A stretch of 64,000 nucleotides of DNA from Amia ocellicauda (taxonomy: Eukaryota; Chordata; Actinopteri; Amiiformes; Amiidae). This document shows, piece after piece, positions 21,869-61,142 of this stretch. The translations under genes were made by a program, and so were the position numbers. Location: contig NC_089851.1 of the NCBI RefSeq assembly GCF_036373705.1, forward strand, positions 58,595,850 to 58,659,849. Reading direction: 5' to 3'. How positions within the stretch are numbered: the stretch's first letter is position 1; each line of letters begins with the position of its first letter. The notes under the pieces are model-generated. The model did not search any database. It saw only the letters and a program-made list of their open reading frames with translations, and had not been told where the DNA came from.

Positions 21869-24394
21869 GGATGGATGGACGGCAAGGCAAGCATCTGATT
21901 GACAGTGGTCCGTGATCTGCTGTTATGCTACTATGCTACTGACCATTGGGGGAGCGATAGCAAGCAAGAGAGTTAGATATCGAGAGTCATTGATAGATAG
22001 ATAGATAGATGGATGGATGGATGGACGGCAAGGCAAGCATCTGATTGACAGTGGTCCGTGATCTGCTGTTATGCTACTATGCTACTGACCATTGGGGGAG
22101 TGATAGCAAGCAAGAGAGTTAGATATCGAGAGTCATAGATAGATAGATAGATAGATGGATGGATGGACGGCAAGGCAAGCATCTGATTGACAGTGGTCCG
22201 TGATCTGCTGTTATGCTACTATGCTACTGACCATTGGGGTAGCGATAGCAAGCAAGAGAGTTAGATATCGAGAGTCATAGATAGATAGATAGACAGATAG
22301 ATGGATGGATGGATGGACGGCAAGGCAAGCATCTGATTGACAGTGGTCCGTGATCTGCTGTTATGCTACTATGCTACTGACCATTGGGGGAGCGATAGCA
22401 AGCAAGAGAGTTAGATATCGAGAGTCATAGATAGTTAGATAGATAGATGGATGGATGGATGGACGGCAAGGCAAGCATCTGATTGACAGTGGTCCGTGAT
22501 CTGCTGTTATGCTACTATGCTACTGACCATTGGGGGGGCGATAGCAAGCAAGAGAGTTAGATATCAAGAGTCATAGATAGATAGATAGATAGATGGATGG
22601 ATGGACGGCAAGGCAAGCATCTGATTGACAGTGGTCCGTGATCTGCTGTTATGCTACAATGCTACTGACCATTGGGGGAGCGATAGCAAGCAAGTGAGTT
22701 AGATATCAAGAGTCATAGATAGATAGATAGATAGATGGATGGATGGACGGCAAGGCAAGCATCTGATTGACAGTGGTCCGTGATCTGCTGTTATGCTACT
22801 ATGCTACTGACCATTGGGGGAGCGATAGCAAGCAAGAGAGTTAGATATCGAGAGTCATTGATAGATAGATAGATAGATGGATGGATGGATGGACGGCAAG
22901 GCAAGCATCTGATTGACAGTGGTCCGTGATCTGCTGTTATGCTACTATGCTACTGACCATTGGGGGAGTGATAGCAAGCAAGAGAGTTAGATATCGAGAG
23001 TCATAGATAGATAGATAGATAGATGGATGGATGGACGGCAAGGCAAGCATCTGATTGACAGTGGTCCGTGATCTGCTGTTATGCTACTATGCTACTGACC
23101 ATTGGGGGAGCGATAGCAAGCAAGAGAGTTAGATATCGAGAGTCATAGATAGATAGATAGATAGATAGATGGATGGATGGACGGCAAGGCAAGCATCTGA
23201 TTGACAGTGGTCCGCGATCTGCTGTTATGCTACTATGCTACTGACCATTGGGGGGGCGATAGCAAGCAAGAGAGTTAGATATCAAGAGTCATAGATAGAT
23301 AGATAGATAGATGGATGGATGGACGGCAAGGCAAGCATCTGATTGACAGTGGTCCGTGATCTGCTGTTATGCTACTATGCTACTGACCATTGGGGGAGCG
23401 ATAGCAAGCAAGAGAGTTAGATATCGAGAGTCATTGATAGATAGATAGATAGATGGATGGATGGATGGACGGCAAGGCAAGCATCTGAGTGACAGTGGTC
23501 CGTGATCTGCTGTTATGCTACTATGCTACTGACCATTGGGGGAGCGATAGCAAGCAAGAGAGTTAGATATCAAGAGTCATAGATAGATAGATAGATAGAT
23601 GGATGGATGGACGGCAAGGCAAGCATCTGAGTGACAGTGGTCCGTGATCTGCTGTTATGCTACTATGCTACTGACCATTGGGGGAGCGATAGCAAGTAAG
23701 AGAGTTAGATATCGAGAGTCATTGATAGATTGATAGATAGATGGATGGATGGATGGACGGCAAGGCAAGCATCTGATTGACAGTGGTCCGTGATCTGCTG
23801 TTATGCTACTATGCTACTGACCATTGGGGGAGCGATAGCAAGCAAGAGAGTTAGATATCGAGAGTCATAGATAGATAGATAGATAGATGGATGGATGGAC
23901 GGCAAGGCAAACATCTGATTGACAGTGGTCCGTGATCTGCTGTTATGCTACTATGCTACTGACCATTGGGGGAGCGATAGCAAGCAAGAGAGTTAGATAT
24001 CAAGAGTCATAGATAGATAGATAGATAGATGGATGGATGGACGGCAAGGCAAGCATCTGATTGACAGTGGTCCGTGATCTGCTGTTATGCTACTTTGCTA
24101 CTGACCATTGGGGGAGTGATAGCAAGAAAGAGAGTTAGATGTCAAGAGTCATAGATAGATAGATAGATGGATGGATGGATGGACGGCAAGGCAAGCATCT
24201 GATTGACAGTGGTCCGTGATCTGCTGTTATGCTACTATGCTACTGACCATTGGGGGAGCGATAGCAAGCAAGAGAGTTAGATATTGAGAGTCATAGATAG
24301 ATGGATGGATGGATGGATGGCAAGGCAAGAACTTGATTGACAGCGGTCCGTGATCTGCTGTTATTCTACTATCAGCAGCAGCAGCGGCAGATTT

Positions 24395-24468
24395 GGCGCC
24401 GTGGCTTAGTTGGTTAAAGCGCCTGTCTAGTAAACAGGAGGTCCTGGGTTCAAATCCCAGCGGTGCCT
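24395..24468 (+). tRNA. tRNA-Thr(AGT), copy 1
   Basis: This 74 nt tRNA reads ACU and, with inosine at position 34, ACC threonine codons. The acceptor stem GGCGCCG pairs with CGGTGCC, with one G4-U69 wobble. The anticodon stem CCTGT/ACAGG encloses loop CTAGTAA, with anticodon AGT at 24429-24431. The A box TGGCTTAGTTGG and B box GGTTCAAATCC match the Pol III consensus. There is no intron and no encoded CCA. The first downstream T4 run is at 24526-24529, about 58 nt past the gene, so the primary transcript trailer would be long. The sequence is identical in copies 1-8. Confidence 0.96.
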
Positions 24469-24754
24469 TAGGCGGGCTTTCTGTGCTCCTTGCGAAGCTT
24501 GTGCTTCCGCTTTGTCGACCATCAGTTTTAGCAAGATAGGCTTATCGTAAAGCCATCAGAGGACGTAATGAACCGGAAAGCCAACTGGACAGACGCCGGT
24601 TTGTAAAGAAGAACCAGAACCCAAAGGACAAGCGCTACGGCCAACGTCCAATTCCCATTGCCGCCCCTGGACAGTCGCAACAGGGAGCTTGTTGCTCCCG
24701 TCAACCTTACGTTTTCACCTCTGTGTGCTTCCTTTGTTGCAGCCTGCATCCAGA

Positions 24755-24805
24755 TTTTGTTTTGTTTTGTTTTGTTTTGTTTGGTTTTGTTTGGTTTTGT
24801 TTTTT
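24755..24805 (+). repeat. (TTTTG)n tract, copy 1, 51 bp
   Basis: Pentanucleotide tandem repeat between the two Thr tRNA genes, with two GTTTGG interruptions. Each unit contains a T4 run, a minimal Pol III termination signal on +. The reading frames across it give only low-complexity F/C/V/L protein. Confidence 0.97.
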
Positions 24806-24847
24806 GCCTTACGCCTGAGTGTAGGCACTGGGGAATGGGAGAGTCCT

Positions 24848-24921
24848 GGCACCGTGGCTTAGTTGGTCAAAGCGCCTGTCTTGTAAACAGGAAACCCTGG
24901 GGTCGACTCCCAGCAGTGCCT
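24848..24921 (+). tRNA. tRNA-Thr(TGT), copy 1, with T54G
   Basis: This 74 nt tRNA has anticodon TGT at 24882-24884 (loop CTTGTAA) and reads ACA threonine codons. Its body is the same as Thr(AGT) at 65 of 74 positions when compared with an unmutated copy. The acceptor stem GGCACCG/CAGTGCC has a C6-A67 mismatch. At 24902 the T-loop T54 is G, changing the B box from GGTTCG to GGGTCG. This removes the T54-A58 reverse-Hoogsteen pair and may weaken TFIIIC binding, so the gene may be impaired. The next T5 run is at 24974-24978. Confidence 0.8.
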
Positions 24922-25075
24922 TGGTTTATGTTGGCCTAGGCAATGGAAAGGAAGTTTCTAAACGCTCAATACATTTTTGCAAGATGGCCGTCCACAGCAA
25001 GCAGCTTAAGGTTACTGTAGCCACAGTCTGGCAAGCTGTCCGCCAGAAGTAGAAACAATAACAAGGGGCGGGGGG

Positions 25076-25079
25076 AAAA
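25076..25079 (-). terminator. Pol III T4 terminator of tRNA-Asn, copy 1
   Basis: On - the Asn gene is followed after 6 nt by TTTT (AAAA on +), the canonical Pol III stop. The same signal sits 7-10 bp left of the Asn gene in every cassette, at about 27239, 29452, 31334, 33512, 36008, 38231, 40603, 44276, 52936, 55163 and 60959. The two Thr genes have no T4 within about 50 nt. Confidence 0.85.
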
Positions 25080-25085
25080 GTGGGC

Positions 25086-25159
25086 CGTCCCTGGGTGGAT
25101 TCGAACCACCATCCTTTTGGTTAACAGCCAAACGCGCTGAACGATTGCGCCACAGAGAC
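25086..25159 (-). tRNA. tRNA-Asn(GTT), copy 1, with G19T
   Basis: This 74 nt tRNA decodes AAC and AAU. The acceptor stem GTCTCTG pairs with CAGGGAC. The anticodon stem TTTGG/CCAAA encloses CTGTTAA, with GTT on - at 25125-25123. The B box is GGTTCGAATCC. The A box ends CGT rather than CGG because D-loop G19 is T. G19 normally pairs with C56 in the tRNA elbow and belongs to the A-box consensus, so folding and promoter strength may both suffer. It is convergent with tRNA-Thr(TGT). Confidence 0.85.
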
Positions 25160-25259
25160 AGACAGAGGTGTTGTGGTTGCTGCAGTCGTGCAGTTCCTTC
25201 ACAGTTGCCAAAAATCATTTCCAGCACACGATTTTCTTTGTCGTTGAATGCAACATACG

Positions 25260-26520
25260 TGACCATTGGGGGAGCGATAGCAAGCAAGAGAGTTAGATAT
25301 CGAGAGTCATAGATAGATAGATAGATAGATGGATGGATGGACGGCAAGGCAAGCATCTGATTGACAGTGTTCCGTGATCTGCTGTTATGCTACTATGCTA
25401 CTGACCATTGGGGGAGCGATAGCAAGCAAGAGAGTTAGATAACAAGAGTCATAGATAGATAGATGGATGGATGGATGGACGGCAAGGCAAGCATCTGATT
25501 GACAGTGGTCCGTGATCTGCTGTTATGCTACTATGCTACTGACCATTGGGGGAGCGATAGCAAGTAAGAGAATTAGATATCGAGAGTCATTGATAGATAG
25601 ATAGATAGATGGATGGATGGACGGCAAGGCAAGCATCTGATTGACAGTGGTCCGTGATCTGCTGTTATGCTACAATGCTACTGACCATTGGGGGAGCGAT
25701 AGCAAGCAAGAGAGTTAGATATCAAGAGTCATAGATAGATAGATAGATAGATGTATGGATGGACGGCAAGGCAAGCATCTGATTGACAGTGGTCCGTGAT
25801 CTGCTGTTATGCTACAATGCTACTGACCATTGGGGGAGCGATAGCAAGCAAGAGAGTTAGATATCAAGAGTCATAGATAGATAGATAGATAAATGGATGG
25901 ATGGACGGCAAGGCAAGCATCTGATTGACAGTGGTCCGTGATCTGCTGTTATGATACTATGCTACTGACCATTGGGGGAGCGATAGCAAGCAAGAGAGTT
26001 AGATATCAAGAGTCATAGATAGATAGATAGATGGATGGATGGATGGACGGCAAGGCAAGCATCTGATTGACAGTGGTCCGTGATCTGCTGTTATGCTACT
26101 ATGCTACTGACCATTGGGGGAGCGATAGCAAGCAAGAGAGTTAGATATCAAGAGTCATAGATAGGTAGATGGATGGGTGGATGGATGGACGTCAAGGCAA
26201 GCATCTGATTGACAGTGGTCCGTGATCTGCTGTTATGCTACTATGCTACTGACCATTGGGGGAGCGATAGCAAGCAAGAGAGTTAGATGTCAAGAGTCAT
26301 AGATAGATAGATAGATGGATGGATGGATGGACGGCAAGGCAAGCATCTGATTGACAGTGGTCCGTGATCTGCTGTTATGCTACTATGCTACTGACCATTG
26401 GGGGAGCGATAGCAAGCAAGAGAGTTAGATATTGAGAGTCATAGATAGATGGATGGATGGATGGATGGCAAGGCAAGAACCTGATTGACAGCGGTCCGTG
26501 ATCTGCTGTTATTCTACTAT
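25260..26520 (+). repeat. Satellite block S2, 1261 bp, nine monomers
   Basis: Nine monomers, the last cut at CTACTAT. Marker order is ACAGTGTTCC, then AGATAACAAG, GTAAGAG with CATTGAT, CTACAATG, GATGTATGG, TTATGATAC, GATGGGTGG, AGATGTCAAG and ATATTGAG, ending in the cassette-flanking monomer (AAGAACCTG, ACAGCGG, TTATTCTAC). The length and order are shared with S3, S5 and S7. Confidence 0.96.
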
Positions 26521-26542
26521 CAGCAGCAGCAGCGGCAGATTT

Positions 26543-26616
26543 GGCGCCGTGGCTTAGTTGGTTAAAGCGCCTGTCTAGTAAACAGGAGGTCCTGGGTTCA
26601 AATCCCAGCGGTGCCT
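26543..26616 (+). tRNA. tRNA-Thr(AGT), copy 2
   Basis: Identical to copy 1: all stems intact and both internal promoter boxes consensus. Confidence 0.96.
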
Positions 26617-26902
26617 TAGGCGGGCTTTCTGTGCTCCTTGCGAAGCTTGTGCTTCCGCTTTATCGACCATCAGTTTTAGCAAGATAGGCTTATCGTAAAG
26701 CCATCAGAGGACGTAATGAACCGGAAAGCCAACTGGACAGACGCCGGTTTGTAAAGAAGAACTAGAACCCAAAGGACAAGCGCTACGGCCAACGTCCAAT
26801 TCCCATTGCCGCCCCTGGACAGTCGCAACAGGGAGCTTGTTGCTCCCGTCAACCTTACGTTTTCACCTCTGTGTGCTTCCTTTGTTGCAGCCTGCATCCA
26901 GA

Positions 26903-26968
26903 TTTTGTTTTGTTTTGTTTTGTTTTGTTTTGTTTTGTTTTGTTTGGTTTTGTTTGGTTTTGTTTTTT
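26903..26968 (+). repeat. (TTTTG)n tract, copy 2, 66 bp
   Basis: Three units longer than copy 1, with the same two GTTTGG interruptions near its right end. Confidence 0.97.
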
Positions 26969-27010
26969 GCCTTACGCCTGAGTGTAGGCACTGGGGAATG
27001 GGAGAGTCCT

Positions 27011-27084
27011 GGCACCGTGGCTTAGTTGGTCAAAGCGCCTGTCTTGTAAACAGGAAACCCTGGGGTCGACTCCCAGCAGTGCCT
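27011..27084 (+). tRNA. tRNA-Thr(TGT), copy 2, with T54G
   Basis: Same as copy 1, including G26, the C6-A67 mismatch and the T54G change in the T loop and B box. Function is uncertain. Confidence 0.8.
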
Positions 27085-27248
27085 TGGTTTATGTTGGCCT
27101 AGGCAATGGAAAGGAAGTTTCTAAACGCTCAATACATTTTTGCAAGATGGCCATCCACAGCAAGCAGCTTAAGGTTACTGTAGCCACAGTCTGGCAAGCT
27201 GTCCGCCAGAAGTAGAAACAATAACAAGGGGCGGGGGGAAAAGTGGGC

Positions 27249-27322
27249 CGTCCCTGGGTGGATTCGAACCACCATCCTTTTGGTTAACAGCCAAACACGC
27301 TGAACGATTGCGCCACAGAGAC
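27249..27322 (-). tRNA. tRNA-Asn(GTT), copy 2, with G19T and C25T
   Basis: Anticodon GTT and acceptor, anticodon and T stems are intact. G19 is T as in copy 1. In addition C25 is T, turning the G10-C25 pair of the D stem into a G-U wobble. Confidence 0.82.
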
Positions 27323-27422
27323 AGACAGAGGTGTTGTGGTTGCTGCAGTCGTGCAGTTCCTTCACAGTTGCCAAAAATCATTTCCAGCACACGATTTTCT
27401 TTGTCGTTGAATGCAACATACG

Positions 27423-28683: not shown

Positions 28684-28705
28684 CAGCAGCAGCAGCAGCA
28701 GATTT

Positions 28706-28779
28706 GGCGCCGTGGCTTAGTTGGTTAAAGCGCCTGTCTAGTAAACAGGAGGTCCTGGGTTCAAATCCCAGCGGTGCCT
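28706..28779 (+). tRNA. tRNA-Thr(AGT), copy 3
   Basis: Identical to copy 1 with intact cloverleaf and promoter boxes. Confidence 0.96.
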
Positions 28780-29065
28780 TAGGCGGGCTTTCTGTGCTCC
28801 TTGCGAAGCTTGTGCTTCCGCTTTGTCGACCATCAGTTTTAGCAAGATAGGCTTATCGTAAAGCCATCAGAGGACGTAATGAACCGGAAAGCCAACTGGA
28901 CAGACGCCGGTTTGTAAAGAAGAACCAGAACCCAAAGGACAAGCGCTACGGCCAACGTCCAATTCCCATTGCCGCCCCTGGACAGTCGCAACAGGGAGCT
29001 TGTTGCTCCCGTCAACCTTACGTTTTCACCTCTGTGTGCTTCCTTTGTTGCAGCCTGCATCCAGA

Positions 29066-29150
29066 TTTTGTTTTGTTTTGTTTTGTTTTGTTTTGTTTTG
29101 TTTTGTTTTGTTTTGTTTTGTTTTGTTTTGTTTTGTTTTGTTTTGTTTTG

Positions 29151-29181
<31 letters not shown>
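29066..29181 (+). repeat. (TTTTG)n tract, copy 3, 116 bp
   Basis: Pure pentanucleotide array without the GTTTGG interruptions of subfamily A. Confidence 0.97.
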
Positions 29182-29223
29182 GCCTTACGCCTGAGTGTAG
29201 GCACTGGGGAATGGGAGAGTCCT

Positions 29224-29297
29224 GGCACCGTGGCTTAGTTGGTCAAAGCACCTGTCTTGTAAACAGGAAACCCTGGGTTCGACTCCCAGCAGTGCCT
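29224..29297 (+). tRNA. tRNA-Thr(TGT), copy 3
   Basis: Anticodon TGT, consensus B box GGTTCGACTCC and A box TGGCTTAGTTGG. Position 26 is A (G in subfamilies A and C), which is tolerated in eukaryotic tRNAs. The C6-A67 acceptor mismatch is present, as in all copies. Confidence 0.88.
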
Positions 29298-29461
29298 TGG
29301 TTTATGTTGGCCTAGGCAATGGAAAGGAAGTTTCTAAACGCTCAATACATTTTTGCAAGATGGCCATCCACAGCAAGCAGCTTAAGGTTACTGTAGCCAC
29401 AGTCTGGCAAGCTGTCCGCCAGAAGTAGAAACAATAACAAGGGGCGGGGGGAAAAGTGGGC

Positions 29462-29535
29462 CGTCCCTGGGTGGATTCGAACCACCATCCTTTTGGTTAA
29501 CAGCCAAACGCGCTGACCGATTGCGCCACAGAGAC
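29462..29535 (-). tRNA. tRNA-Asn(GTT), copy 3
   Basis: Intact 74 nt cloverleaf with G18G19, A box TGGCGCAATCGG, B box GGTTCGAATCC and a T4 terminator 6 nt past the 3' end. Confidence 0.96.
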
Positions 29536-29635
29536 AGACAGAGGTGTTGTGGTTGCTGCAGTCGTGCAGTTCCTTCACAGTTGCCAAAAATCATTTCCAG
29601 CACACGATTTTCTTTGTCGTTGAATGCAACATACG

Positions 29636-30620: not shown

Positions 30621-30642
30621 CAGCAGCAGCAGCGGCAGATTT

Positions 30643-30716
30643 GGCGCCGTGGCTTAGTTGGTTAAAGCGCCTGTCTAGTAAACAGGAGGTCCTGGGTTCA
30701 AATCCCAGCGGTGCCT
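30643..30716 (+). tRNA. tRNA-Thr(AGT), copy 4
   Basis: Identical to copy 1. Confidence 0.96.
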
Positions 30717-31002
30717 TAGGCGGGCTTTCTGTGCTCCTTGCGAAGCTTGTGCTTCCGCTTTATCGACCATCAGTTTTAGCAAGATAGGCTTATCGTAAAG
30801 CCATCAGAGGACGTAATGAACCGGAAAGCCAACTGGACAGACGCCGGTTTGTAAAGAAGAACTAGAACCCAAAGGACAAGCGCTACGGCCAACGTCCAAT
30901 TCCCATTGCCGCCCCTGGACAGTCGCAACAGGGAGCTTGTTGCTCCCGTCAACCTTACGTTTTCACCTCTGTGTGCTTCCTTTGTTGCAGCCTGCATCCA
31001 GA

Positions 31003-31063
31003 TTTTGTTTTGTTTTGTTTTGTTTTGTTTTGTTTTGTTTGGTTTTGTTTGGTTTTGTTTTTT
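31003..31063 (+). repeat. (TTTTG)n tract, copy 4, 61 bp
   Basis: A-type tract with two GTTTGG interruptions. Confidence 0.97.
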
Positions 31064-31105
31064 GCCTTACGCCTGAGTGTAGGCACTGGGGAATGGGAGA
31101 GTCCT

Positions 31106-31179
31106 GGCACCGTGGCTTAGTTGGTCAAAGCGCCTGTCTTGTAAACAGGAAACCCTGGGGTCGACTCCCAGCAGTGCCT
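31106..31179 (+). tRNA. tRNA-Thr(TGT), copy 4, with T54G
   Basis: As copy 1: G26, C6-A67 mismatch and T54G in the B box. Possibly impaired. Confidence 0.8.
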
Positions 31180-31343
31180 TGGTTTATGTTGGCCTAGGCA
31201 ATGGAAAGGAAGTTTCTAAACGCTCAATACATTTTTGCAAGATGGCCATCCACAGCAAGCAGCTTAAGGTTACTGTAGCCACAGTCTGGCAAGCTGTCCG
31301 CCAGAAGTAGAAACAATAACAAGGGGCGGGGGGAAAAGTGGGC

Positions 31344-31417
31344 CGTCCCTGGGTGGATTCGAACCACCATCCTTTTGGTTAACAGCCAAACGCGCTGAAC
31401 GATTGCGCCACAGAGAC
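31344..31417 (-). tRNA. tRNA-Asn(GTT), copy 4, with G19T
   Basis: As copy 1. The D-loop G19T is the only departure from the intact form. Confidence 0.85.
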
Positions 31418-31517
31418 AGACAGAGGTGTTGTGGTTGCTGCAGTCGTGCAGTTCCTTCACAGTTGCCAAAAATCATTTCCAGCACACGATTTTCTTTGTC
31501 GTTGAATGCAACATACG

Positions 31518-32778: not shown

Positions 32779-32800
32779 CAGCAGCAGCAGCAGCAGATTT

Positions 32801-32874
32801 GGCGCCGTGGCTTAGTTGGTTAAAGCGCCTGTCTAGTAAACAGGAGGTCCTGGGTTCAAATCCCAGCGGTGCCT
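32801..32874 (+). tRNA. tRNA-Thr(AGT), copy 5
   Basis: Identical to copy 1. Confidence 0.96.
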
Positions 32875-33160
32875 TAGGCGGGCTTTCTGTGCTCCTTGCG
32901 AAGCTTGTGCTTCCGCTTTGTCGACCATCAGTTTTAGCAAGATAGGCTTATCGTAAAGCCATCAGAGGACGTAATGAACCGGAAAGCCAACTGGACAGAC
33001 GCCGGTTTGTAAAGAAGAACCAGAACCCAAAGGACAAGCGCTACGGCCAACGTCCAATTCCCATTGCCGCCCCTGGACAGTCGCAACAGGGAGCTTGTTG
33101 CTCCCGTCAACCTTACGTTTTCACCTCTGTGTGCTTCCTTTGTTGCAGCCTGCATCCAGA

Positions 33161-33210
33161 TTTTGTTTTGTTTTGTTTTGTTTTGTTTTGTTTTGTTTTG
33201 TTTTGTTTTG

Positions 33211-33241
<31 letters not shown>
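33161..33241 (+). repeat. (TTTTG)n tract, copy 5, 81 bp
   Basis: Uninterrupted pentanucleotide array. Confidence 0.97.
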
Positions 33242-33283
33242 GCCTTACGCCTGAGTGTAGGCACTGGGGAATGGGAGAGTCCT

Positions 33284-33357
33284 GGCACCGTGGCTTAGTT
33301 GGTCAAAGCACCTGTCTTGTAAACAGGAAACCCTGGGTTCGACTCCCAGCAGTGCCT
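33284..33357 (+). tRNA. tRNA-Thr(TGT), copy 5
   Basis: A26 and normal T54. Same C6-A67 mismatch as its paralogues. Confidence 0.88.
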
Positions 33358-33521
33358 TGGTTTATGTTGGCCTAGGCAATGGAAAGGAAGTTTCTAAACG
33401 CTCAATACATTTTTGCAAGATGGCCATCCACAGCAAGCAGCTTAAGGTTACTGTAGCCACAGTCTGGCAAGCTGTCCGCCAGAAGTAGAAACAATAACAA
33501 GGGGCGGGGGGAAAAGTGGGC

Positions 33522-33595
33522 CGTCCCTGGGTGGATTCGAACCACCATCCTTTTGGTTAACAGCCAAACGCGCTGACCGATTGCGCCACAGAGAC
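33522..33595 (-). tRNA. tRNA-Asn(GTT), copy 5
   Basis: Intact, same as copy 3. Confidence 0.96.
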
Positions 33596-33695
33596 AGACA
33601 GAGGTGTTGTGGTTGCTGCAGTCGTGCAGTTCCTTCACAGTTGCCAAAAATCATTTCCAGCACACGATTTTCTTTGTCGTTGAATGCAACATACG

Positions 33696-35244: not shown

Positions 35245-35266
35245 CAGCAGCAGCAGCAGCAGATTT

Positions 35267-35340
35267 GGCGCCGTGGCTTAGTTGGTTAAAGCGCCTGTCT
35301 AGTAAACAGGAGGTCCTGGGTTCAAATCCCAGCGGTGCCT
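35267..35340 (+). tRNA. tRNA-Thr(AGT), copy 6
   Basis: Identical to copy 1. Confidence 0.96.
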
Positions 35341-35626
35341 TAGGCGGGCTTTCTGTGCTCCTTGCGAAGCTTGTGCTTCCGCTTTGTCGACCATCAGTTT
35401 TAGCAAGATAGGCTTATCGTAAAGCCATCAGAGGACGTAATGAACCGGAAAGCCAACTGGACAGACGCCGGTTTGTAAAGAAGAACCAGAACCCAAAGGA
35501 CAAGCGCTACGGCCAACGTCCAATTCCCATTGCCGCCCCTGGACAGTCGCAACAGGGAGCTTGTTGCTCCCGTCAACCTTACGTTTTCACCTCTGTGTGC
35601 TTCCTTTGTTGCAGCCTGCATCCAGA

Positions 35627-35706
35627 TTTTGTTTTGTTTTGTTTTGTTTTGTTTTGTTTTGTTTTGTTTTGTTTTGTTTTGTTTTGTTTTGTTTTGTTTT
35701 GTTTTG

Positions 35707-35737
<31 letters not shown>
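35627..35737 (+). repeat. (TTTTG)n tract, copy 6, 111 bp
   Basis: Uninterrupted pentanucleotide array. Confidence 0.97.
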
Positions 35738-35779
35738 GCCTTACGCCTGAGTGTAGGCACTGGGGAATGGGAGAGTCCT

Positions 35780-35853
35780 GGCACCGTGGCTTAGTTGGTC
35801 AAAGCACCTGTCTTGTAAACAGGAAACCCTGGGTTCGACTCCCAGCAGTGCCT
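35780..35853 (+). tRNA. tRNA-Thr(TGT), copy 6
   Basis: B-type: A26, T54 normal, C6-A67 mismatch. Confidence 0.88.
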
Positions 35854-36017
35854 TGGTTTATGTTGGCCTAGGCAATGGAAAGGAAGTTTCTAAACGCTCA
35901 ATACATTTTTGCAAGATGGCCATCCACAGCAAGCAGCTTAAGGTTACTGTAGCCACAGTCTGGCAAGCTGTCCGCCAGAAGTAGAAACAATAACAAGGGG
36001 CGGGGGGAAAAGTGGGC

Positions 36018-36091
36018 CGTCCCTGGGTGGATTCGAACCACCATCCTTTTGGTTAACAGCCAAACGCGCTGAACGATTGCGCCACAGAGAC
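36018..36091 (-). tRNA. tRNA-Asn(GTT), copy 6, with G19T
   Basis: Carries the A-type G19T change, although the left part of its cassette is B-type. Confidence 0.85.
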
Positions 36092-36191
36092 AGACAGAGT
36101 TGTTGTGGTTGCTGCAGTCGTGCAGTTCCTTCACAGTTGCCAAAAATCATTTCCAGCACACGATTTTCTTTGTCGTTGAATGCAACATACG

Positions 36192-37452: not shown

Positions 37453-37474
37453 CAGCAGCAGCAGCAGCAGATTT

Positions 37475-37548
37475 GGCGCCGTGGCTTAGTTGGTTAAAGC
37501 GCCTGTCTAGTAAACAGGAGGTCCTGGGTTCAAATCCCAGCGGTGCCT
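37475..37548 (+). tRNA. tRNA-Thr(AGT), copy 7
   Basis: Identical to copy 1. Confidence 0.96.
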
Positions 37549-37834
37549 TAGGCGGGCTTTCTGTGCTCCTTGCGAAGCTTGTGCTTCCGCTTTGTCGACC
37601 ATCAGTTTTAGCAAGATAGGCTTATCGTAAAGCCATCAGAGGACGTAATGAACCGGAAAGCCAACTGGACAGACGCCGGTTTGTAAAGAAGAACCAGAAC
37701 CCAAAGGACAAGCGCTACGGCCAACGTCCAATTCCCATTGCCGCCCCTGGACAGTCGCAACAGGGAGCTTGTTGCTCCCGTCAACCTTACGTTTTCACCT
37801 CTGTGTGCCTCCTTTGTTGCAGCCTGCATCCAGA

Positions 37835-37929
37835 TTTTGTTTTGTTTTGTTTTGTTTTGTTTTGTTTTGTTTTGTTTTGTTTTGTTTTGTTTTGTTTTGT
37901 TTTGTTTTGTTTTGTTTTGTTTTGTTTTG

Positions 37930-37960
<31 letters not shown>
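37835..37960 (+). repeat. (TTTTG)n tract, copy 7, 126 bp
   Basis: Uninterrupted pentanucleotide array. Confidence 0.97.
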
Positions 37961-38002
37961 GCCTTACGCCTGAGTGTAGGCACTGGGGAATGGGAGAGTC
38001 CT

Positions 38003-38076
38003 GGCACCGTGGCTTAGTTGGTCAAAGCACCTGTCTTGTAAACAGGAAACCCTGGGTTCGACTCCCAGCAGTGCCT
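38003..38076 (+). tRNA. tRNA-Thr(TGT), copy 7
   Basis: B-type: A26, T54 normal, C6-A67 mismatch. Confidence 0.88.
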
Positions 38077-39829: not shown

Positions 39830-39851
39830 CAGCAGCAGCAGCGGCAGATTT

Positions 39852-44005: not shown

Positions 44006-44047
44006 GCCTTACGCCTGAGTGTAGGCACTGGGGAATGGGAGAGTCCT

Positions 44048-47721: not shown

Positions 47722-50438
47722 TCAATGATCTGCTGTTATGCTACTATGCTACTGACCATTGGGGGAGCGATAGCAAGCAAGAGAGTTAGATATCAAGAGT
47801 CATAGATAGATAGATAGATAGATGGATGGATGGACGGCAAGGCAAGCATCTGATTGACAGTGGTCCGTGATCTGCTGTTATGCTACTATGCTACTGACCA
47901 TTGGGGGAGCGATAGCAAGCAAGAGAGTTAGATATCAAGAGTCATAGATAGATAGATAGATAGATGGATGGATGGACGGCAAGGCAAGCATCTGATTGAC
48001 AGTGGTCCGTGATCTGCTGTTATGCTACAATGCTACTGACCATTGGGGGAGCGATAGCAAGCAAGAGAGTTAGATATCAAGAGTCATAGATAGATAGATA
48101 GATAGATGGATGGATGGACGGCAAGGCAAGCATCTGATTGACAGTGGTCCGTGATCTGCTGTTAAGCTACTATGCTACTGACCATTGGGGGAGCGATAGC
48201 AAGCAAGAGAGTTAGATATCAAGAGTCATAGATAGATAGATAGATAGATGGATGGATGGACGGCAAGGCAAGCATCTGATTGACAGTGGTCCGTGATCTG
48301 CTGTTATGCTACAATGCTACTGACCATTGGGGGAGCGATAGCAAGCAAGAGAGTTAGATATCAAGAGTCATAGATAGATAGATAGATAGATGGATGGATG
48401 GACGGCAAGGCAAGCATCTGATTGACAGTGGTCCGTGATCTCCTGTTATGCTACTATGCTACTGACCATTGGGGGAGCGATAGCAAGCAAGAGAGTTAGA
48501 TATCGAGAGTCATTGATAGATAGATAGATAGATGGATGGATGGATGGACGGCAACCCAAGCATCTGATTGACAGTGGTCCGTGATCTGCTGTTATGCTAC
48601 TTTGCTTCTGACCATTGGGGGAGCGATAGCAAGCAAGAGAGTTAGATGTCAAGAGTCATAGATAGATAGATAGACAGATGGATGGATGGACGGCAAGGCA
48701 AGCACCTGATTGACAGTGGTCCGTGATCTGCTGTTATGCTACTATGCTACTGACCATTGGGTGAGCGAAAGCAAGTAAGAGAGTTAGATATCAAGACTCA
48801 TAGATAGATAGATAGATAGATGGATGGATGGACGGCAAGGCAAGCATCTGAGTGACAGTGGTCCGTGATCTGCTGTTATGCTACTATGCTACTGACCATT
48901 GGGGGAGCGATAGCAAGCAAGAGAGTTAGATATCAAGAGTCATAGATAGATAGATAGATAGATGGATGGATGGACGGCAAGGCAAGCATCTGATTGACAG
49001 TGGTCCGTGATCTGCTGTTATGCTACTATGCTACTGACCATTGGGGGAGCGATAGCAAGCAAGAGAGTTAGATATCGAGAGTCATTGATAGATAGATAGA
49101 TAGATGGATGGATGGATGGACTGAAGGCAAGCATCTGATTGACAGTGGTCCGTGATCTGCTGTTATGCTACTATGCTACTGACCATTGGGGGAGCGATAG
49201 CAAGCAAGAGAGTTAGATATCAAGAGTCATTGATAGATAGATAGACAGATGGATGGATGGACGGCAAGGCAAGCACCTGATTGACAGTGGTCCGTGATCT
49301 GCTGTTATGCTACTATGCTACTGACCATTGGGTGAGCGAAAGCAAGTAAGAGTGTTAGATATCAAGAGTCATTGATAGATAGATAGATAGATAGATGGAT
49401 GGATGGACGGCAAGGCAAGCATCTGATTGACAGTGGTCCGTGATCTGCTGTTATGCTACAATGCTACTGACCATTGGGGGAGCGATAGCAAGCAAGAGAG
49501 TTAGATATCAAGAGTCATTGATAGATAGATAGATAGATGGATGGATGGATGGACGGCAAGGCAAGCATCTGATTGACAGTGGTCCATGATCTGCTGTTAT
49601 GCTACTATGCTACTGACCATTGGGGGAGCGATAGCAAGCAAGAGAGTTAGATATCAAGAGTCATAGATAGATAGATAGATAGATGGATGGATGGACGGCA
49701 AGGCAAGCATCTGATTGACAGTGGTCCGTGATCTGCTGTTATGCTACTATGCTACTGACCATTGGGGGAGCGATAGCAAGTAAGAGAGTTAGATATCGAG
49801 AGTCATTGATAGATAGATAGATAGATGGATGGATGGATGGACGGCAAGGCAAGCATCTGATTGACAGTGGTCCGTGATCTGCTGTTATGCTACTATGCTA
49901 CTGACCATTGGGGGAGCGATAGCAAGCAAGAGAGTTAGATATCAAGAGTCATTGATAGATAGATAGATAGATGGATGGATGGACGGCAAGGCAAGCATCT
50001 GATTGACAGTGGTCCATGATCTGCTGTTATGCTACTATGCTACTGACCATTGGGGGAGCGATAGCAAGCAAGAGAGTTAGATAACAAGAGTCATAGATAG
50101 ATAGATGGATGGATGGATGGTCGGCAAGGCAAGCATCTGATTGACAGTGGTCCGTGATCTGCTGTTATGCTACTATGCTACTGACCATTGGGGGAGCGAT
50201 AGCAAGTAAGAGAGTTAGATATCGAGAGTCATAGATAGATGGATAGATAGATGGATGGATGGACGGGAAGGCAAGCATCTGATTGACAGTGGTCCGTGAT
50301 CTGCTGTTATGCTACTATGCTACTGACCATTGGGGGAGCGATAGCAAGCAAGAGAGTTAGATATCGAGAGTCATTGATAGATAGATAGATAGATGGATGG
50401 ATGGATGGACGGAAAGGCAAGCATCTGATTGACAGTGG
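47722..50438 (+). repeat. 2717 bp higher-order repeat, unit 2
   Basis: Markers recur at exactly 2717 bp: CTGAAGG monomer 46401 to 49118, GGTCGGC 47404 to 50121, and the CTCCTGTT/TTGCTTCTG pair 45729 to 48446. The early part differs from unit 1 around 47.87-48.4 kb. Confidence 0.85.
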
Positions 50439-51834
50439 TCAATGATCTGCTGTTATGCTACTATGCTACTGACCATTGGGGGAGCGATAGCAAGCAAGAG
50501 AGTTAGATATCAAGAGTCATAGATAGATAGATAGATAGATGGATGGATGGACGGCAAGGCAAGCATCTGATTGACAGTGGTCCGTGATCTGCTGTTATGC
50601 TACTATGCTACTGACCATTGGGGGAGCGATAGCAAGCAAGAGAGTTAGATATCGAGAGTCATTGATAGATAGATAGATAGATGGATGGATGGATGGACGG
50701 CAAGGCAAGCATCTGATTGACAGTGGTCGGTGATCTGCTGTTATGCTACTTTGCTTCTGACCATTGGGGGAGCGATAGCAAGCAAGAGAGTTAGATGTCA
50801 AGAGTCATAGATAGATAGATAGACAGATGGATGGATGGACGGCAAGGCAAGCACCTGATTGACAGTGGTCCGTGATCTGCTGTTATGCTACTATGCTACT
50901 GACCATTGGGGGAGCGATAGCAAGTAAGAGAGTTAGATATCGAGAGTCATAGATAGATAGATAGATAGATGGATGGACGGCAAGGCAAGCATCTGATTGA
51001 CAGTGGTCCGTGATCTGCTGTTATGCTACAATGCTACTGACCATTGGGGGAGCGATAGCAAGCAAGAGAGTTAGATATCAAGAGTCATAGATAGATAGAT
51101 AGATAGATGGATGGATGGACGGCAAGGCAAGCATCTGATTGACAGTGGTCCGTGATCTCCTGTTATGCTACTATGCTACTGACCATTGGGGGAGCGATAG
51201 CAAGCAAGAGAGTTAGATATCGAGAGTCATTGATAGATAGATAGATAGATGGATGGATGGATGGACGGCAAGCCAAGCATCTGATTGACAGTGGTCCGTG
51301 ATCTGCTGTTATGCTACTTTGCTTCTGACCATTGGGGGAGCGATAGCAAGCAAGAGAGTTAGATGTCAAGAGTCATAGATAGATAGATAGACAGATGGAT
51401 GGATGGACGGCAAGGCAAGCACCTGATTGACAGTGGTCCGTGATCTGCTGTTATGCTACTATGCTACTGACCATTGGGTGAGCGAAAGCAAGTAAGAGAG
51501 TTAGATATCAAGACTCATAGATAGATAGATAGATAGATGGATGGATGGACGGCAAGGCAAGCATCTGAGTGACAGTGGTCCGTGATCTGCTGTTATGCTA
51601 CTATGCTACTGACCATTGGGGGAGCGATAGCAAGCAAGAGAGTTAGATATCAAGAGTCATAGATAGATAGATAGATAGATGGATGGATGGACGGCAAGGC
51701 AAGCATCTGATTGACAGTGGTCCGTGATCTGCTGTTATGCTACTATGCTACTGACCATTGGGGGAGCGATAGCAAGCAAGAGAGTTAGATATCGAGAGTC
51801 ATTGATAGATAGATAGATAGATGGATGGATGGAT
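50439..51834 (+). repeat. 2717 bp higher-order repeat, unit 3, partial
   Basis: Colinear with units 1 and 2 (48446 to 51163 is 2717 bp) until about 51.8 kb. There the expected GGACTGAAGG is replaced by a standard monomer. One monomer near 50970 has a shorter GATG tail. Confidence 0.8.
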
Positions 51835-52194
51835 GGACGGCAAGGCAAGCATCTGAGTGACAGTGGTCCGTGATCTGCTGTTATGCTACTATGCTACTGA
51901 CCATTGGGGGAGCGATAGCAAGCAAGAGAGTTAGATATCAAGAGTCATAGATAGATAAATAGATAGATGGATGGATGGACGGCAAGGCAAGCATCTGATT
52001 GACAGTGGTCCGTGATCTGCTGTTATGCTACTATGCTACTGACCATTGGGGGAGCGATAGCAAGCAAGAGAGTTAGATATTGAGAGTCATAGATAGATAG
52101 ATGGATGGATGGATGGACGGCAAGGCAAGAACCTGATTGACAGCGGTCCGTGATCTGCTGTTATTCTACTATCATCAGCAGCAGCAGCAGATTT

Positions 52195-52268
52195 TGCGCC
52201 GTGGCTTAGTTGGTTAAAGCGCCTGTCTAGTAAACAGGAGGTCCTGGGTTCAAATCCCAGCGGTGCCT
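52195..52268 (+). tRNA. tRNA-Thr(AGT), copy 10, with G1T
   Basis: The first acceptor base is T, so the 1-72 pair becomes T-C. Everything else matches copy 1. The terminal mismatch may affect 5' processing or aminoacylation. Confidence 0.82.
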
Positions 52269-52554
52269 TAGGCGGGCTTTCTGTGCTCCTTGCGAAGCTT
52301 GTGCTTCCGCTTTGTCGACCATCAGTTTTAGCAAGATAGGCTTATCGTAAAGCCATCAGAGGACGTAATGAACCGGAAAGCCAACTGGACAGACGCCGGT
52401 TTGTAAAGAAGAACCAGAACCCAAAGGACAAGCGCTACGGCCAACGTCCAATTCCCATTGCCGCCCCTGGACAGTCGCAACAGGGAGCTTGTTGCTCCCG
52501 TCAACCTTACGTTTTCACCTCTGTGTGCTTCCTTTGTTGCAGCCTGCATCCAGA

Positions 52555-52634
52555 TTTTGTTTTGTTTTGTTTTGTTTTGTTTTGTTTTGTTTTGTTTTGT
52601 TTTGTTTTGTTTTGTTTTGTTTTGTTTTGTTTTG

Positions 52635-52665
<31 letters not shown>
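52555..52665 (+). repeat. (TTTTG)n tract, copy 10, 111 bp
   Basis: Uninterrupted pentanucleotide array. Confidence 0.97.
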
Positions 52666-52707
52666 GCCTTACGCCTGAGTGTAGGCACTGGGGAATGGGA
52701 GAGTCCT

Positions 52708-52781
52708 GGCACCGTGGCTTAGTTGGTCAAAGCACCTGTCTTGTAAACAGGAAACCCTGGGTTCGACTCCCAGCAGTGCCT
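52708..52781 (+). tRNA. tRNA-Thr(TGT), copy 10
   Basis: B-type: A26, T54 normal, C6-A67 mismatch. Confidence 0.88.
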
Positions 52782-52945
52782 TGGTTTATGTTGGCCTAGG
52801 CAATGGAAAGGAAGTTTCTAAACGCTCAATACATTTTTGCAAGATGGCCATCCACAGCAAGCAGCTTAAGGTTACTGTAGCCACAGTCTGGCAAGCTGTC
52901 CGCCAGAAGTAGAAACAATAACAAGGGGCGGGGGGAAAAGTGGGC

Positions 52946-53019
52946 CGTCTCTGGGTGGATTCGAACCACCATCCTTTTGGTTAACAGCCAAACGCACTGA
53001 CCGATTGCGCCACAGAGAC
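52946..53019 (-). tRNA. tRNA-Asn(GTT), copy 10
   Basis: G69 is A, converting the usual U4-G69 wobble of the acceptor stem to a U-A pair. C23 is T, giving a G12-U23 wobble in the D stem. G19 is normal. Confidence 0.93.
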
Positions 53020-53119
53020 AGACAGAGGTGTTGTGGTAGCTGCAGTCGTGCAGTTCCTTCACAGTTGCCAAAAATCATTTCCAGCACACGATTTTCTTTG
53101 TCGTTGAATGCAACATACG

Positions 53120-54384: not shown

Positions 54385-54406
54385 CATCAGCAGCAGCAGC
54401 AGATTT

Positions 54407-54480
54407 TGCGCCGTGGCTTAGTTGGTTAAAGCGCCTGTCTAGTAAACAGGAGGTCCTGGGTTCAAATCCCAGCGGTGCCT
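54407..54480 (+). tRNA. tRNA-Thr(AGT), copy 11, with G1T
   Basis: Same first-base change as copy 10. Confidence 0.82.
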
Positions 54481-54766
54481 TAGGCGGGCTTTCTGTGCTC
54501 CTTGCGAAGCTTGTGCTTCCGCTTTGTCGACCATCAGTTTTAGCAAGATAGGCTTATCGTAAAGCCATCAGAGGACGTAATGAACCGGAAAGCCAACTGG
54601 ACAGACGCCGGTTTGTAAAGAAGAACCAGAACCCAAAGGACAAGCGCTACGGCCAACGTCCAATTCCCATTGCCGCCCCTGGACAGTCGCAACAGGGAGC
54701 TTGTTGCTCCCGTCAACCTTACGTTTTCACCTCTGTGTGCTTCCTTTGTTGCAGCCTGCATCCAGA

Positions 54767-54861
54767 TTTTGTTTTGTTTTGTTTTGTTTTGTTTTGTTTT
54801 GTTTTGTTTTGTTTTGTTTTGTTTTGTTTTGTTTTGTTTTGTTTTGTTTTGTTTTGTTTTG

Positions 54862-54892
<31 letters not shown>
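54767..54892 (+). repeat. (TTTTG)n tract, copy 11, 126 bp
   Basis: Uninterrupted pentanucleotide array. Confidence 0.97.
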
Positions 54893-54934
54893 GCCTTACG
54901 CCTGAGTGTAGGCACTGGGGAATGGGAGAGTCCT

Positions 54935-55008
54935 GGCACCGTGGCTTAGTTGGTCAAAGCACCTGTCTTGTAAACAGGAAACCCTGGGTTCGACTCCCAG
55001 CAGTGCCT
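54935..55008 (+). tRNA. tRNA-Thr(TGT), copy 11
   Basis: B-type, same as copy 10. Confidence 0.88.
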
Positions 55009-55172
55009 TGGTTTATGTTGGCCTAGGCAATGGAAAGGAAGTTTCTAAACGCTCAATACATTTTTGCAAGATGGCCATCCACAGCAAGCAGCTTAAGGTT
55101 ACTGTAGCCACAGTCTGGCAAGCTGTCCGCCAGAAGTAGAAACAATAACAAGGGGCGGGGGGAAAAGTGGGC

Positions 55173-55246
55173 CGTCTCTGGGTGGATTCGAACCACCATC
55201 CTTTTGGTTAACAGCCAAACGCACTGACCGATTGCGCCACAGAGAC
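55173..55246 (-). tRNA. tRNA-Asn(GTT), copy 11
   Basis: Same as copy 10: U4-A69 pair, G12-U23 wobble, G19 normal. Confidence 0.93.
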
Positions 55247-55346
55247 AGACAGAGGTGTTGTGGTAGCTGCAGTCGTGCAGTTCCTTCACAGTTGCCAAAA
55301 ATCATTTCCAGCACACGATTTTCTTTGTCGTTGAATGCAACATACG

Positions 55347-60205: not shown

Positions 60206-60227
60206 CAGCAGCAGCACAGGCAGATTT

Positions 60228-60301
60228 GGCGCCGTGGCTTAGTTGGTTAAAGCGCCTGTCTAGTAAAATGGAGGTTCTGGGTTCAAATCCCAGCGGTGCC
60301 T
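60228..60301 (+). pseudogene. tRNA-Thr(AGT), copy 12, broken anticodon stem
   Basis: The 3' anticodon strand is AATGG instead of ACAGG. This creates G30-A40 and U29-U41 mismatches in a five-pair stem. Position 48 is also T instead of C. The anticodon AGT and the A and B boxes remain, so it could be transcribed, but the product is unlikely to fold into a working tRNA. Confidence 0.7.
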
Positions 60302-60587
60302 TAGGCGGGCTTTCTGTGCTCCTTGCGAAGCTTGTGCTTTCGCTTTGTCGACCATCAGTTTTAGCAAGATAGGCTTATCATAAAGCCATCAGAGGACGTA
60401 ATGAACCGGAAAGCCAACTGGACAGACGCCGGTTTGTAAAGAAGAACCAGAACCCCAAGGACACGCGCTACGGCCAACGTCCAATTCCCATTGCCGCCCC
60501 CGGACAGTTGCAACAGGGAGCTTGTTGCTCCCGTCAACCTTACGTTTTCACCTCTGTGTGCTTCCTTTGTTGCAGTCTGCATCCAGA

Positions 60588-60657
60588 TTTTGTTTTGTTT
60601 TGTTTTGTTTTGTTTTGTTTTGTTTTGTTTTGTTTTGTTTTGTTTTGTTTTGTTTTG

Positions 60658-60688
<31 letters not shown>
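60588..60688 (+). repeat. (TTTTG)n tract, copy 12, 101 bp
   Basis: Uninterrupted pentanucleotide array. Confidence 0.97.
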
Positions 60689-60730
60689 GCCTTACGCCTG
60701 AGTGTAGGCACTGGGGAATGGGAGAGTCCT

Positions 60731-60804
60731 GGCACCGTGGCTTAGTTGGTCAAAGCGCCTGTCTTGTAAACAGGAAACCCTGGGTTCGACTCCCAGCAGT
60801 GCCT
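60731..60804 (+). tRNA. tRNA-Thr(TGT), copy 12
   Basis: Same as copy 8 (G26, T54, C6-A67 mismatch). It is intact although the neighbouring Thr(AGT) is damaged. Confidence 0.9.
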
Positions 60805-60968
60805 TGGTTTATGTTGGCCTAGGCAATGGAAAGGAAGTTTCTAAACGCTCAATACATTTTTGCAAGATGGCCGTCCACAGCAAGCAGCTTAAGGTTACTG
60901 TAGCCACAGTCTGGCAAGCTGTCCGCCAGAAGTAGAAACAATAACAAGGGGCGGGGGGAAAAGTGGGC

Positions 60969-61042
60969 CGTCCCTGGGTGGATTCGAACCACCATCCTTT
61001 TGGTTAACAGCCAAACACACTGACCGATTGCGCCACAGAGAC
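60969..61042 (-). tRNA. tRNA-Asn(GTT), copy 12
   Basis: The D stem carries both T23 and T25, giving two G-U wobbles (G12-U23 and G10-U25). G19, anticodon and B box are normal. Confidence 0.9.
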
Positions 61043-61142
61043 AGACAGAGGTGTTGTGGTTGCTGCAGTCGTGCAGTTCCTTCACAGTTGCCAAAAATCA
61101 TTTCCAGCACACGATTTTCTTTGTCGTTGAATGCAACATACG

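Follow-up and report, generated by a model that had tools for sequence, protein, structure and literature searches.

Three tRNA genes per cassette

The window (the whole 64,000-bp stretch of DNA that we analysed) contains 36 tRNA genes, between 24395 and 61043, as identified by ARAGORN. They are arranged in 12 cassettes that each carry Thr(AGT) and Thr(TGT) on the + strand and Asn(GTT) on the - strand. The first-pass annotation had reported this layout and this number, and both are exact by ARAGORN and by the Rfam tRNA model. It had also allowed that most copies might score as pseudogenes, but all 36 genes score 56.1-73.1 bits, as compared to the model's gathering score of 29. When one cassette unit was scanned for other RNA families, only tRNA reached the gathering score.

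All of the cassettes have the same orientation (+ strand) and they are 887-972 bp long (n = 12; 24373-25259 through 60206-61142). We give the genes of each in the order Thr(AGT), Thr(TGT), Asn(GTT). Cassette 1 (24373..25259) has them at 24395-24468, 24848-24921, and 25083-25160; cassette 2 (26521..27422) at 26543-26616, 27011-27084, and 27246-27323; and cassette 3 (28684..29635) at 28706-28779, 29224-29297, and 29459-29536. Cassette 3 is free of tRNA defects, except for a C.A mismatch that is common to all of the Thr(TGT) genes. The genes of cassette 4 (30621..31517) are at 30643-30716, 31106-31179, and 31341-31418; those of cassette 5 (32779..33695) at 32801-32874, 33284-33357, and 33519-33596; those of cassette 6 (35245..36191) at 35267-35340, 35780-35853, and 36015-36092; those of cassette 7 (37453..38414) at 37475-37548, 38003-38076, and 38238-38315; and those of cassette 8 (39830..40786) at 39852-39925, 40375-40448, and 40610-40687. 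Thr(AGT) is damaged in the last four. In cassette 9 (43488..44459; genes at 43510-43583, 44048-44121, and 44283-44360), the D-stem pair 10-26 of this gene is broken. The acceptor pair 1-73 is broken both in cassette 10 (52173..53119; 52195-52268, 52708-52781, and 52943-53020) and in cassette 11 (54385..55346; 54407-54480, 54935-55008, and 55170-55247). Cassette 12 (60206..61142; 60228-60301, 60731-60804, and 60966-61043) has two broken anticodon-stem pairs in Thr(AGT), which scores 56.1 bits.

The right end of every cassette adjoins TGACCATTGG, and the left end is directly preceded by ...TTATTCTACTAT (12 of 12 in both cases). A (TTTTG)n repeat inside the cassettes varies in length, from 5 to 26 pure units (in cassette 1, it lies at about 24755-24803). 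Thr(TGT) and Asn are convergent, tail to tail, with 164 bp between them. A T4 terminator lies 7 nt downstream of Asn in all 12 cassettes, and at 58 nt for Thr(AGT) and 53 nt for Thr(TGT).

Repeats made of tRNA-derived SINEs or tRNA pseudogenes are common in animals, and a Cys-type tRNA repeat on contig C27 (L012) consists mostly of decayed copies. We see next to no chance that the cassettes are of this kind. Each unit has three full-length tRNA genes at 56-73 bits with fixed junctions, and the satellite itself contains no tRNA fragment (blastn of cassette 3 against the masked window, E up to 1). The scores and the junctions rule out a pseudogene or SINE satellite.

The cassettes lie within a satellite higher-order repeat

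Apart from the cassettes, satellite occupies the whole window (1-64000), and the array runs far past it. The first-pass annotation correctly placed the cassettes inside a satellite of the 142-bp class, but it confined the composite satellite to 24373..61142. The satellite is of the GATA/GATG type, with 368 head-to-tail monomers in the window, mostly of 142, 146, or 150 bp; 128 of the 368 are distinct. One pattern for the satellite had no exact match in a collection of viral contigs, and neither did one in a collection of genome contigs.

Consecutive cassettes are separated by 7, 9, 9, 9, 9, 9, 10, 11, 19, 34, or 54 monomers (sorted by number). The nine monomers of the first unit, for instance, lie at 25260..26520 (+ strand), and the ninth is a special junction monomer. 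Of the 11 complete units, five contain nine monomers each, and the pairwise identities among these five are 99.35-99.95% over aligned bases. By comparison, monomers have a mean p-distance of 0.023-0.032, depending on which of three parts of the window is taken, and the mean p-distance between the 12 cassettes is 0.0107. Taken together, these values indicate that the cassette and the satellite were amplified together. The monomers belong to a constant length class and the multi-monomer units are more alike than the monomers are, so a cassette and its nine monomers together qualify as a genuine higher-order repeat. The shared junctions also bear out what the first-pass annotation suggested, a module of three tRNA genes that sits inside a higher-order repeat of the satellite and has multiplied together with it.

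The satellite also makes higher-order repeats without cassettes. The cassette-free stretch at 1..24372 (+ strand; 168 monomers, including the junction monomer ahead of cassette 1) has higher-order repeats of 13, 15, and 24 monomers, whose units are 98.3-99.3% identical (three comparisons). At 44460..52172 (+ strand), 54 monomers without a cassette include a higher-order repeat that spans 19 monomers, or about 2.72 kb. The range for all cassette-free units is the same, 98.3-99.3%, from five comparisons that were picked for shared monomer runs or period. An identical run of 15 monomers, with cassettes interrupting it, is found again 4,100 bp further on. The satellite at 61143..64000 (+ strand) continues to the end of the window.

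It is conceivable that the array is driven by its tRNA genes, with Pol III complexes on the convergent genes stalling replication forks and units with cassettes recombining and spreading as a result. In favor of this are the tail-to-tail placement of Thr(TGT) and Asn, and also the nine-monomer blocks next to cassettes being slightly more alike (99.68-100% in ten comparisons among the five units, with the cassette left out) than the cassette-free units are. However, the 168 monomers in the first part of the window build higher-order repeats with no cassette, and across the genome there are about 29 monomer cores for each cassette right end (see below), so we consider this account unlikely.

Genome-wide number and location

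We counted pattern matches across the 988-Mb assembly, with a reversed pattern as the control for each. There are 634 cassette right ends (183+451; the backwards-read control had 2+0), 235 left ends of the three-tRNA type (64+171; control 0), 213 left ends of a two-tRNA type with Thr and Asn (106+107; control 0), and 18,624 monomer cores (6,497+12,127; control 0). Among the matches listed, every position is on contig C2, at 51-60.6 Mb of 63.6 Mb. The window thus holds 12 of about 235 three-tRNA cassettes. Some right ends, as in L018, have no adjoining tRNA genes, so 634 is not the number of complete cassettes. The assembly has more tRNA arrays on C27 and elsewhere.

The two-tRNA type is represented by seven cassettes with Thr(CGT) and Asn at another locus (L020), of which six are complete and one is truncated where the stretch ends. 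All seven start at cassette position 271, and the six that are complete share the right junction of the three-tRNA type. A satellite-free relative with Thr and Asn, at 51.05 Mb on C2 (L018), matches unit positions 274-978 at 80% (the cassette ends at unit position 952). This relative also includes the monomer's first 26 bp, followed by DNA that resembles a mobile element. Because those 26 bp are present, it may be a derived copy instead of an ancestral one.

We also considered whether the repeats could be an artefact of assembly, with contigs that were collapsed or falsely repeated. Two stretches of C2 that are 382,877 bp apart are base-identical (in three pairs of 5.2-5.3 kb loci, with overlap between two of the pairs), and a false duplication of that segment is possible. 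But the cassettes vary in substitutions, in (TTTTG)n length, in the number of monomers, and in subfamily, and this variation is graded and nested, which would hardly arise as an artefact. For the array as a whole, we find this explanation very improbable.

Variation in the tRNA genes

Although all of the scores are high, eight of the 12 cassettes in the window are altered at a tRNA position that is paired or otherwise conserved (for the loops, by the generally conserved positions), so a subtler form of the pseudogene objection does hold in part. Stem pairs are broken in four of the 12 Thr(AGT) genes, and all 12 Thr(TGT) genes have one C.A mismatch in the acceptor stem.

Nor did we detect purifying selection on the tRNA genes relative to the spacers, in a comparison of 24 distinct cassettes with low power. 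Variable columns were 18 of 222 in tRNA genes versus 34 of 604 in spacers (p = 0.20); for the cassettes in the window, these were 11 of 222 versus 20 of 613 (p = 0.30). Nine of 20 changes break stems, as compared to an expectation of 8.9. Thr(AGT) is the most variable gene (10 of 74 columns; p = 0.02, uncorrected, in one of three tests). The copies are very young and related, which leaves the test with little power, and selection on a minority of the copies or on their total dosage would not appear in it.

The genes look mostly like recent copies that would still be competent for Pol III. Their expression is possible, given that all 36 are above the cut-off and that Asn has its terminator 7 nt downstream. 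It might then be that the array is a selected bank that supplies Thr and Asn tRNAs under special conditions, in the oocyte for example, with the genes switched on tissue-specifically. The SYY tRNA genes of Arabidopsis, which are silent in most tissues and active in root tips (in the cited part of PMC12308677), and the maternal tRNAs proposed for zebrafish Chr4R (in the cited part of PMC11075544), would be precedents. We doubt this explanation for the array: its tRNA genes lack a signal of purifying selection, and Thr(AGT), the gene that distinguishes the three-tRNA type, varies the most. Also, unlike zebrafish Chr4R, C2 has none of the 21 matches to FISNA (NLR genes; all 27 candidates were scored) and no 5S rRNA gene among the 47 that were scored, out of 47,274 first-look candidates. 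The FISNA genes lie elsewhere, so we rejected C2 as an equivalent of zebrafish Chr4R.

A more specific version is a dormant germline bank in satellite heterochromatin, whose genes would be activated jointly in the oocyte or early embryo and whose copy number would be set by satellite recombination. If every cassette were intact, it would number more than a thousand genes for Thr and Asn tRNAs by our estimate (235 x 3 + 213 x 2). A bank that acts by bulk dosage would be expected to show no gene-by-gene selection. If this were true, the genes would come on when heterochromatin opens, copy number would not be tuned by selection on single genes, and Thr with Asn would suit egg glycoproteins that are rich in N-X-T. 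We regard this version as quite a long shot.

A proposed origin for the array

We propose that the array began when a native cluster with genes for Thr and Asn tRNAs fused to the satellite, whose amplification then carried the cluster along as a passenger, and we think that this is probably correct. The tRNA genes mutate as fast as the spacers and their stems are broken as often as expected by chance, which argues for passengers, and the satellite's higher-order repeats without cassettes also count in favor of hitch-hiking. We infer that the fusion of the cluster to the 142-bp GATA/GATG satellite took place on one chromosome arm. Every copy examined has the same right junction, which apparently formed once; the two left sides, with the extra Thr(AGT) or without it, would have arisen later. 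Unequal exchange, or a similar process of tandem duplication that acts on the satellite, could then have copied the cassette and its neighbouring monomers as a unit. This would have led to several hundred copies, grouped into blocks that face either way, with most of the tRNA genes in the array probably silent or redundant.

Comparison to known arrays

In vertebrates, the 3.18-kb tDNA repeat of Xenopus is a tandem repeat of a multi-tRNA unit that is not known to contain satellite monomers. The first-pass annotation did not recognise the layout in Amia, but a close parallel exists in the human tRNA VNTR at 1q23.3 (Darrow and Chadwick 2014, PMC4041453). According to the cited part of that paper, its 7.3-kb unit has five tRNA genes on both strands, the units are 98% identical and number 9-43, and internal simple repeats vary in length. 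The Amia array shares the tandem multi-tRNA unit, the use of both strands, the high identity, and the variable simple repeats. The human unit is described there as mostly unique and GC-rich, with a CTCF site, and it lacks the short-monomer satellite, whereas the Amia unit consists of a sub-kb cassette and a variable number of 142-bp monomers, and the cassettes, in the hundreds, are spread across about 9 Mb.

Entamoeba has tandem arrays whose units carry 1-5 tRNA genes with short tandem repeats between the genes, and nearly all of its tRNA genes are in such arrays (in the cited part of PMC2652664). In Amia, unlike in Entamoeba, the cassette is hosted by a satellite that has long monomers and a higher-order structure of its own. 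Arabidopsis SYY is also a three-tRNA module in tandem, located at constitutive heterochromatin; 13 of its 54 clustered Tyr genes yield tRNA-like RNAs only, tissue-specific activity is known, and no satellite host is reported, the word satellite being absent from the main text (PMC12308677). On the long arm of zebrafish chromosome 4, tRNA genes are concentrated on a single arm with a satellite (MOSAT-2), as on C2. That arm also has maternal 5S, snRNA, NLR, and zinc-finger genes, and tRNA genes nested in a satellite unit are not described in the cited part (PMC11075544).

Tandem repeats of tRNA genes are therefore already known, from human 1q23.3, Entamoeba, and Arabidopsis SYY. The nesting in a satellite higher-order repeat, the scale, and the two subfamilies that share one junction appear to be new. 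Among the open-licence papers listed in our searches, no title or opening of an abstract showed a tRNA cassette inside a higher-order repeat of a satellite, and one may still have been published.

Passengers that look intact can inflate genome-wide counts of tRNA genes. The array is also a clean test case, with hundreds of near-identical tRNA genes that have scorable variants, so that tRNA-seq could tell whether they are expressed or silent. It unites two kinds of tandem DNA that are usually handled separately, satellites and tRNA gene clusters, and it suggests that satellite recombination can set the number of tRNA genes in a genome.

tRNA genes and satellite of the window

ARAGORN predicted 36 tRNA genes across the whole window, and all 36 are also matched by the Rfam tRNA model (56.1-73.1 bits); no other Rfam family reached its gathering score in a scan of the window. 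These genes group into 12 cassettes (887-972 bp). In every cassette, Thr(AGT) and Thr(TGT) are read from the + strand and Asn(GTT) from the - strand. Outside the cassettes, the window is a single satellite of 368 monomers, with just 128 distinct monomers among them. Most are 142, 146, or 150 bp long, and these steps are the size of the 4-bp GATA/GATG units. Between the two Thr genes is a (TTTTG)n pentanucleotide tract with 5-26 pure copies (for example, 29066-29179), and its copy number differs among cassettes that are otherwise nearly identical.

Cassette edges and co-amplification

The left edge of the cassette follows the same monomer end in all 12 cases, and the right edge directly abuts TGACCATTGG, again in 12 of 12. 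The monomer ahead of the cassette is a distinctive variant that occurs nowhere else in the window. A 17-bp signature of this variant has 11 matches in the window with at most one mismatch, every one of them ahead of a cassette; at cassette 12 the signature is more diverged. Because the junctions are common to all of the cassettes and the preceding monomer is distinctive, the sequences are most simply explained by a single joining event behind all 12.

Neighboring cassettes are separated by 7 to 11 monomers in eight of the gaps and by 19, 34, and 54 monomers in the other three. Runs of identical monomers extend through the cassettes, and the longest (15 monomers) is repeated 4,100 bp further on. 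Five units with nine monomers each share 99.35-99.95% identity (99.68-100% for the satellite portions alone). For comparison, the mean divergence is 2.3-3.2% for monomers and 1.07% for cassettes. Higher-order repeats are also present in cassette-free parts of the satellite, at 98.3-99.3% identity in five comparisons that were chosen via shared monomer runs or period.

Two subfamilies and a satellite-free relative

At L020 (a locus at C2:52.06 Mb, on the same contig as the window), units of about 1.55 kb contain Thr(CGT), Asn, and six or seven monomers. Homology to the three-tRNA cassette begins at cassette position 271, and all six complete cassettes share the right junction of the window. Since the first ~270 bp, with Thr(AGT), are missing from this two-tRNA subfamily, the three-tRNA cassette is, by this sequence comparison, a composite. 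Another relative of the Thr cassette is at L032:687-760 (C2:60.20 Mb), where the gene in the Thr(AGT) position is called as Ala(AGC) with 42 bits, an apparent anticodon change.

L018 (C2:51.05 Mb) contains Leu(CAG), a gene called "Pro", Thr(TGT), and Asn, with no satellite. We take the "Pro" to be a Ser-like gene with a deletion. Positions 274-978 of the cassette unit, which take in the initial 26 bp of a monomer, are matched at 80%. Beyond the match is a 1.4-kb tandem repeat with a DUF6729 frame, and DNA_pol_B_2 frames are found further on. L018 could represent either a remnant of the parent cluster or a derived copy.

Mobile-element-like DNA is present at L018 and at L019, L023, and L025 (C2:51.50, 54.10, and 55.20 Mb). 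L019 has rve and chromodomain frames and L025 has an rve frame; we read the frames of L018, L019, and L025 as Maverick/Polinton-like. In L025, a tRNA-Leu(TAA) gene is 18 bp away from the rve frame. L023 has a tRNA-Leu(TAA) in the same arrangement, and the adjoining candidate frame opens with the same residues as the L025 rve frame.

Genome-wide scale and layout

We searched the 988-Mb assembly (385 contigs), in which the window occupies C2:58,595,850-58,659,849, for patterns from the cassettes and the satellite. The right junction had 636 matches with at most two mismatches (control 0), and the right end within the cassette had 634 matches with at most one mismatch (2 for the control, which was the pattern read backwards). 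The left end of the three-tRNA type had 235 matches, near the 228 for a pattern of the initial 44 nt of Thr(AGT), and the left end of the two-tRNA type had 213. By subtraction, the left side belongs to neither type at about 186 of the right ends. Rearranged and truncated cassettes are present in three of the other C2 loci (L021, L031, and L032), and L009 and L010, around L018, have right ends without any tRNA gene. If all 235 + 213 cassettes retain their tRNA genes, then by extrapolation there would be about 1,100 of them. Monomer cores had 18,624 matches with at most one mismatch; at 144 bp per monomer, this amounts to about 2.7 Mb.

Among the matches listed (100 per pattern), all are on C2 at 51.06-60.57 Mb; later contigs may carry further copies. 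In a search with the first spacer, 40 of 648 candidates were scored, and all 40 are on C2. Strand orientation switches blockwise along this arm. The sequence of C2 that we inspected directly amounts to about 0.3 Mb, with the window counted in.

Other repeats and duplications

A separate tRNA array at L030 and L032 (C2:58.30 and 60.20 Mb) is built of repeats about 587 bp long, and each repeat holds a single tRNA-Pro (AGG or TGG). Certain copies receive a Leu(GAG) call; in the single copy that we inspected, this is because a base adjoining the anticodon of the Pro gene differs. At L012 (C27:4.46 Mb), the monomer of a 226-bp satellite is a tRNA-Cys gene plus a spacer, with one canonical copy and eleven further blast matches that are 82-89% alike. 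There are more tRNA matches at C27:4.25-4.55 Mb, and L013 and L014 have one Cys gene apiece. 5S rRNA genes are found at C8:7.4-9.8 Mb and on several small contigs (47 scored of 47,274 first-look candidates), and some of those scored are spaced about 2.36 kb apart.

The locus pairs L001/L002, L003/L004, and L007/L008 (C2:56.32-56.34 versus 56.70-56.72 Mb) are base-identical and 382,877 bp apart. L005 and L006 are identical except within the initial 914 bases, which puts a breakpoint there. This repeat is either a recent giant duplication or an assembly duplication.

State of the tRNA genes and selection

Stem pairs are broken in 4 of the window's 12 Thr(AGT) genes, 3 of 12 Thr(TGT) genes (cassettes 1, 2, and 4) have an altered base in the T-loop (B-box), and 4 of 12 Asn genes (cassettes 1, 2, 4, and 6) lack a G in the D-loop. 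These T-loop and D-loop positions are generally conserved in tRNAs. One C.A acceptor mismatch is common to all 12 Thr(TGT) genes. Apart from this shared mismatch, cassettes 3, 5, 7, and 8 have none of these defects. A T4 terminator is found 7 nt beyond Asn, only at 58 nt for Thr(AGT), and only at 53 nt for Thr(TGT). At the locus L028, two Asn genes match just positions 4-67 of the model (59.4 bits).

Across the window, 11/222 columns are variable in tRNA genes versus 20/613 in spacers (p=0.30, leaving out the TTTTG tract and gapped columns). A search of the window plus 17 of 40 loci gave full cassettes at 29 places, 24 of them distinct; for these 24, the counts are 18/222 versus 34/604 (p=0.20). 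Relative to cassette 3, 9 of 20 distinct tRNA changes break pairs, versus 8.9 expected at random. Thr(AGT) alone exceeds the spacers in variability (10/74 columns, p=0.02, which is uncorrected and one of three tests).

Interpretation and parallels

The human 1q23.3 tRNA VNTR (PMC4041453), the tRNA gene arrays of Entamoeba (PMC2652664), the Arabidopsis SYY cluster (PMC12308677), and the tRNA-rich Chr4R of zebrafish (PMC11075544) are known parallels. Taken together, they show that tandem tRNA units, a heterochromatic location, and large scale were each already known separately. Our search of open-licence papers found no tRNA cassette nested within a higher-order repeat of a short-monomer satellite. 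The assembly has 21 FISNA-domain genes, with none on C2; genes of this kind suggest that the host is a ray-finned fish.

We propose that a satellite captured a tRNA cluster, that the cluster would then have multiplied along with the satellite, and that the tRNA genes would since have decayed neutrally. The data fit this combination of capture, joint multiplication, and neutral decay. Both an exchange mechanism and silencing are steps that we infer. The genes may nevertheless function via bulk dosage or in special tissues.
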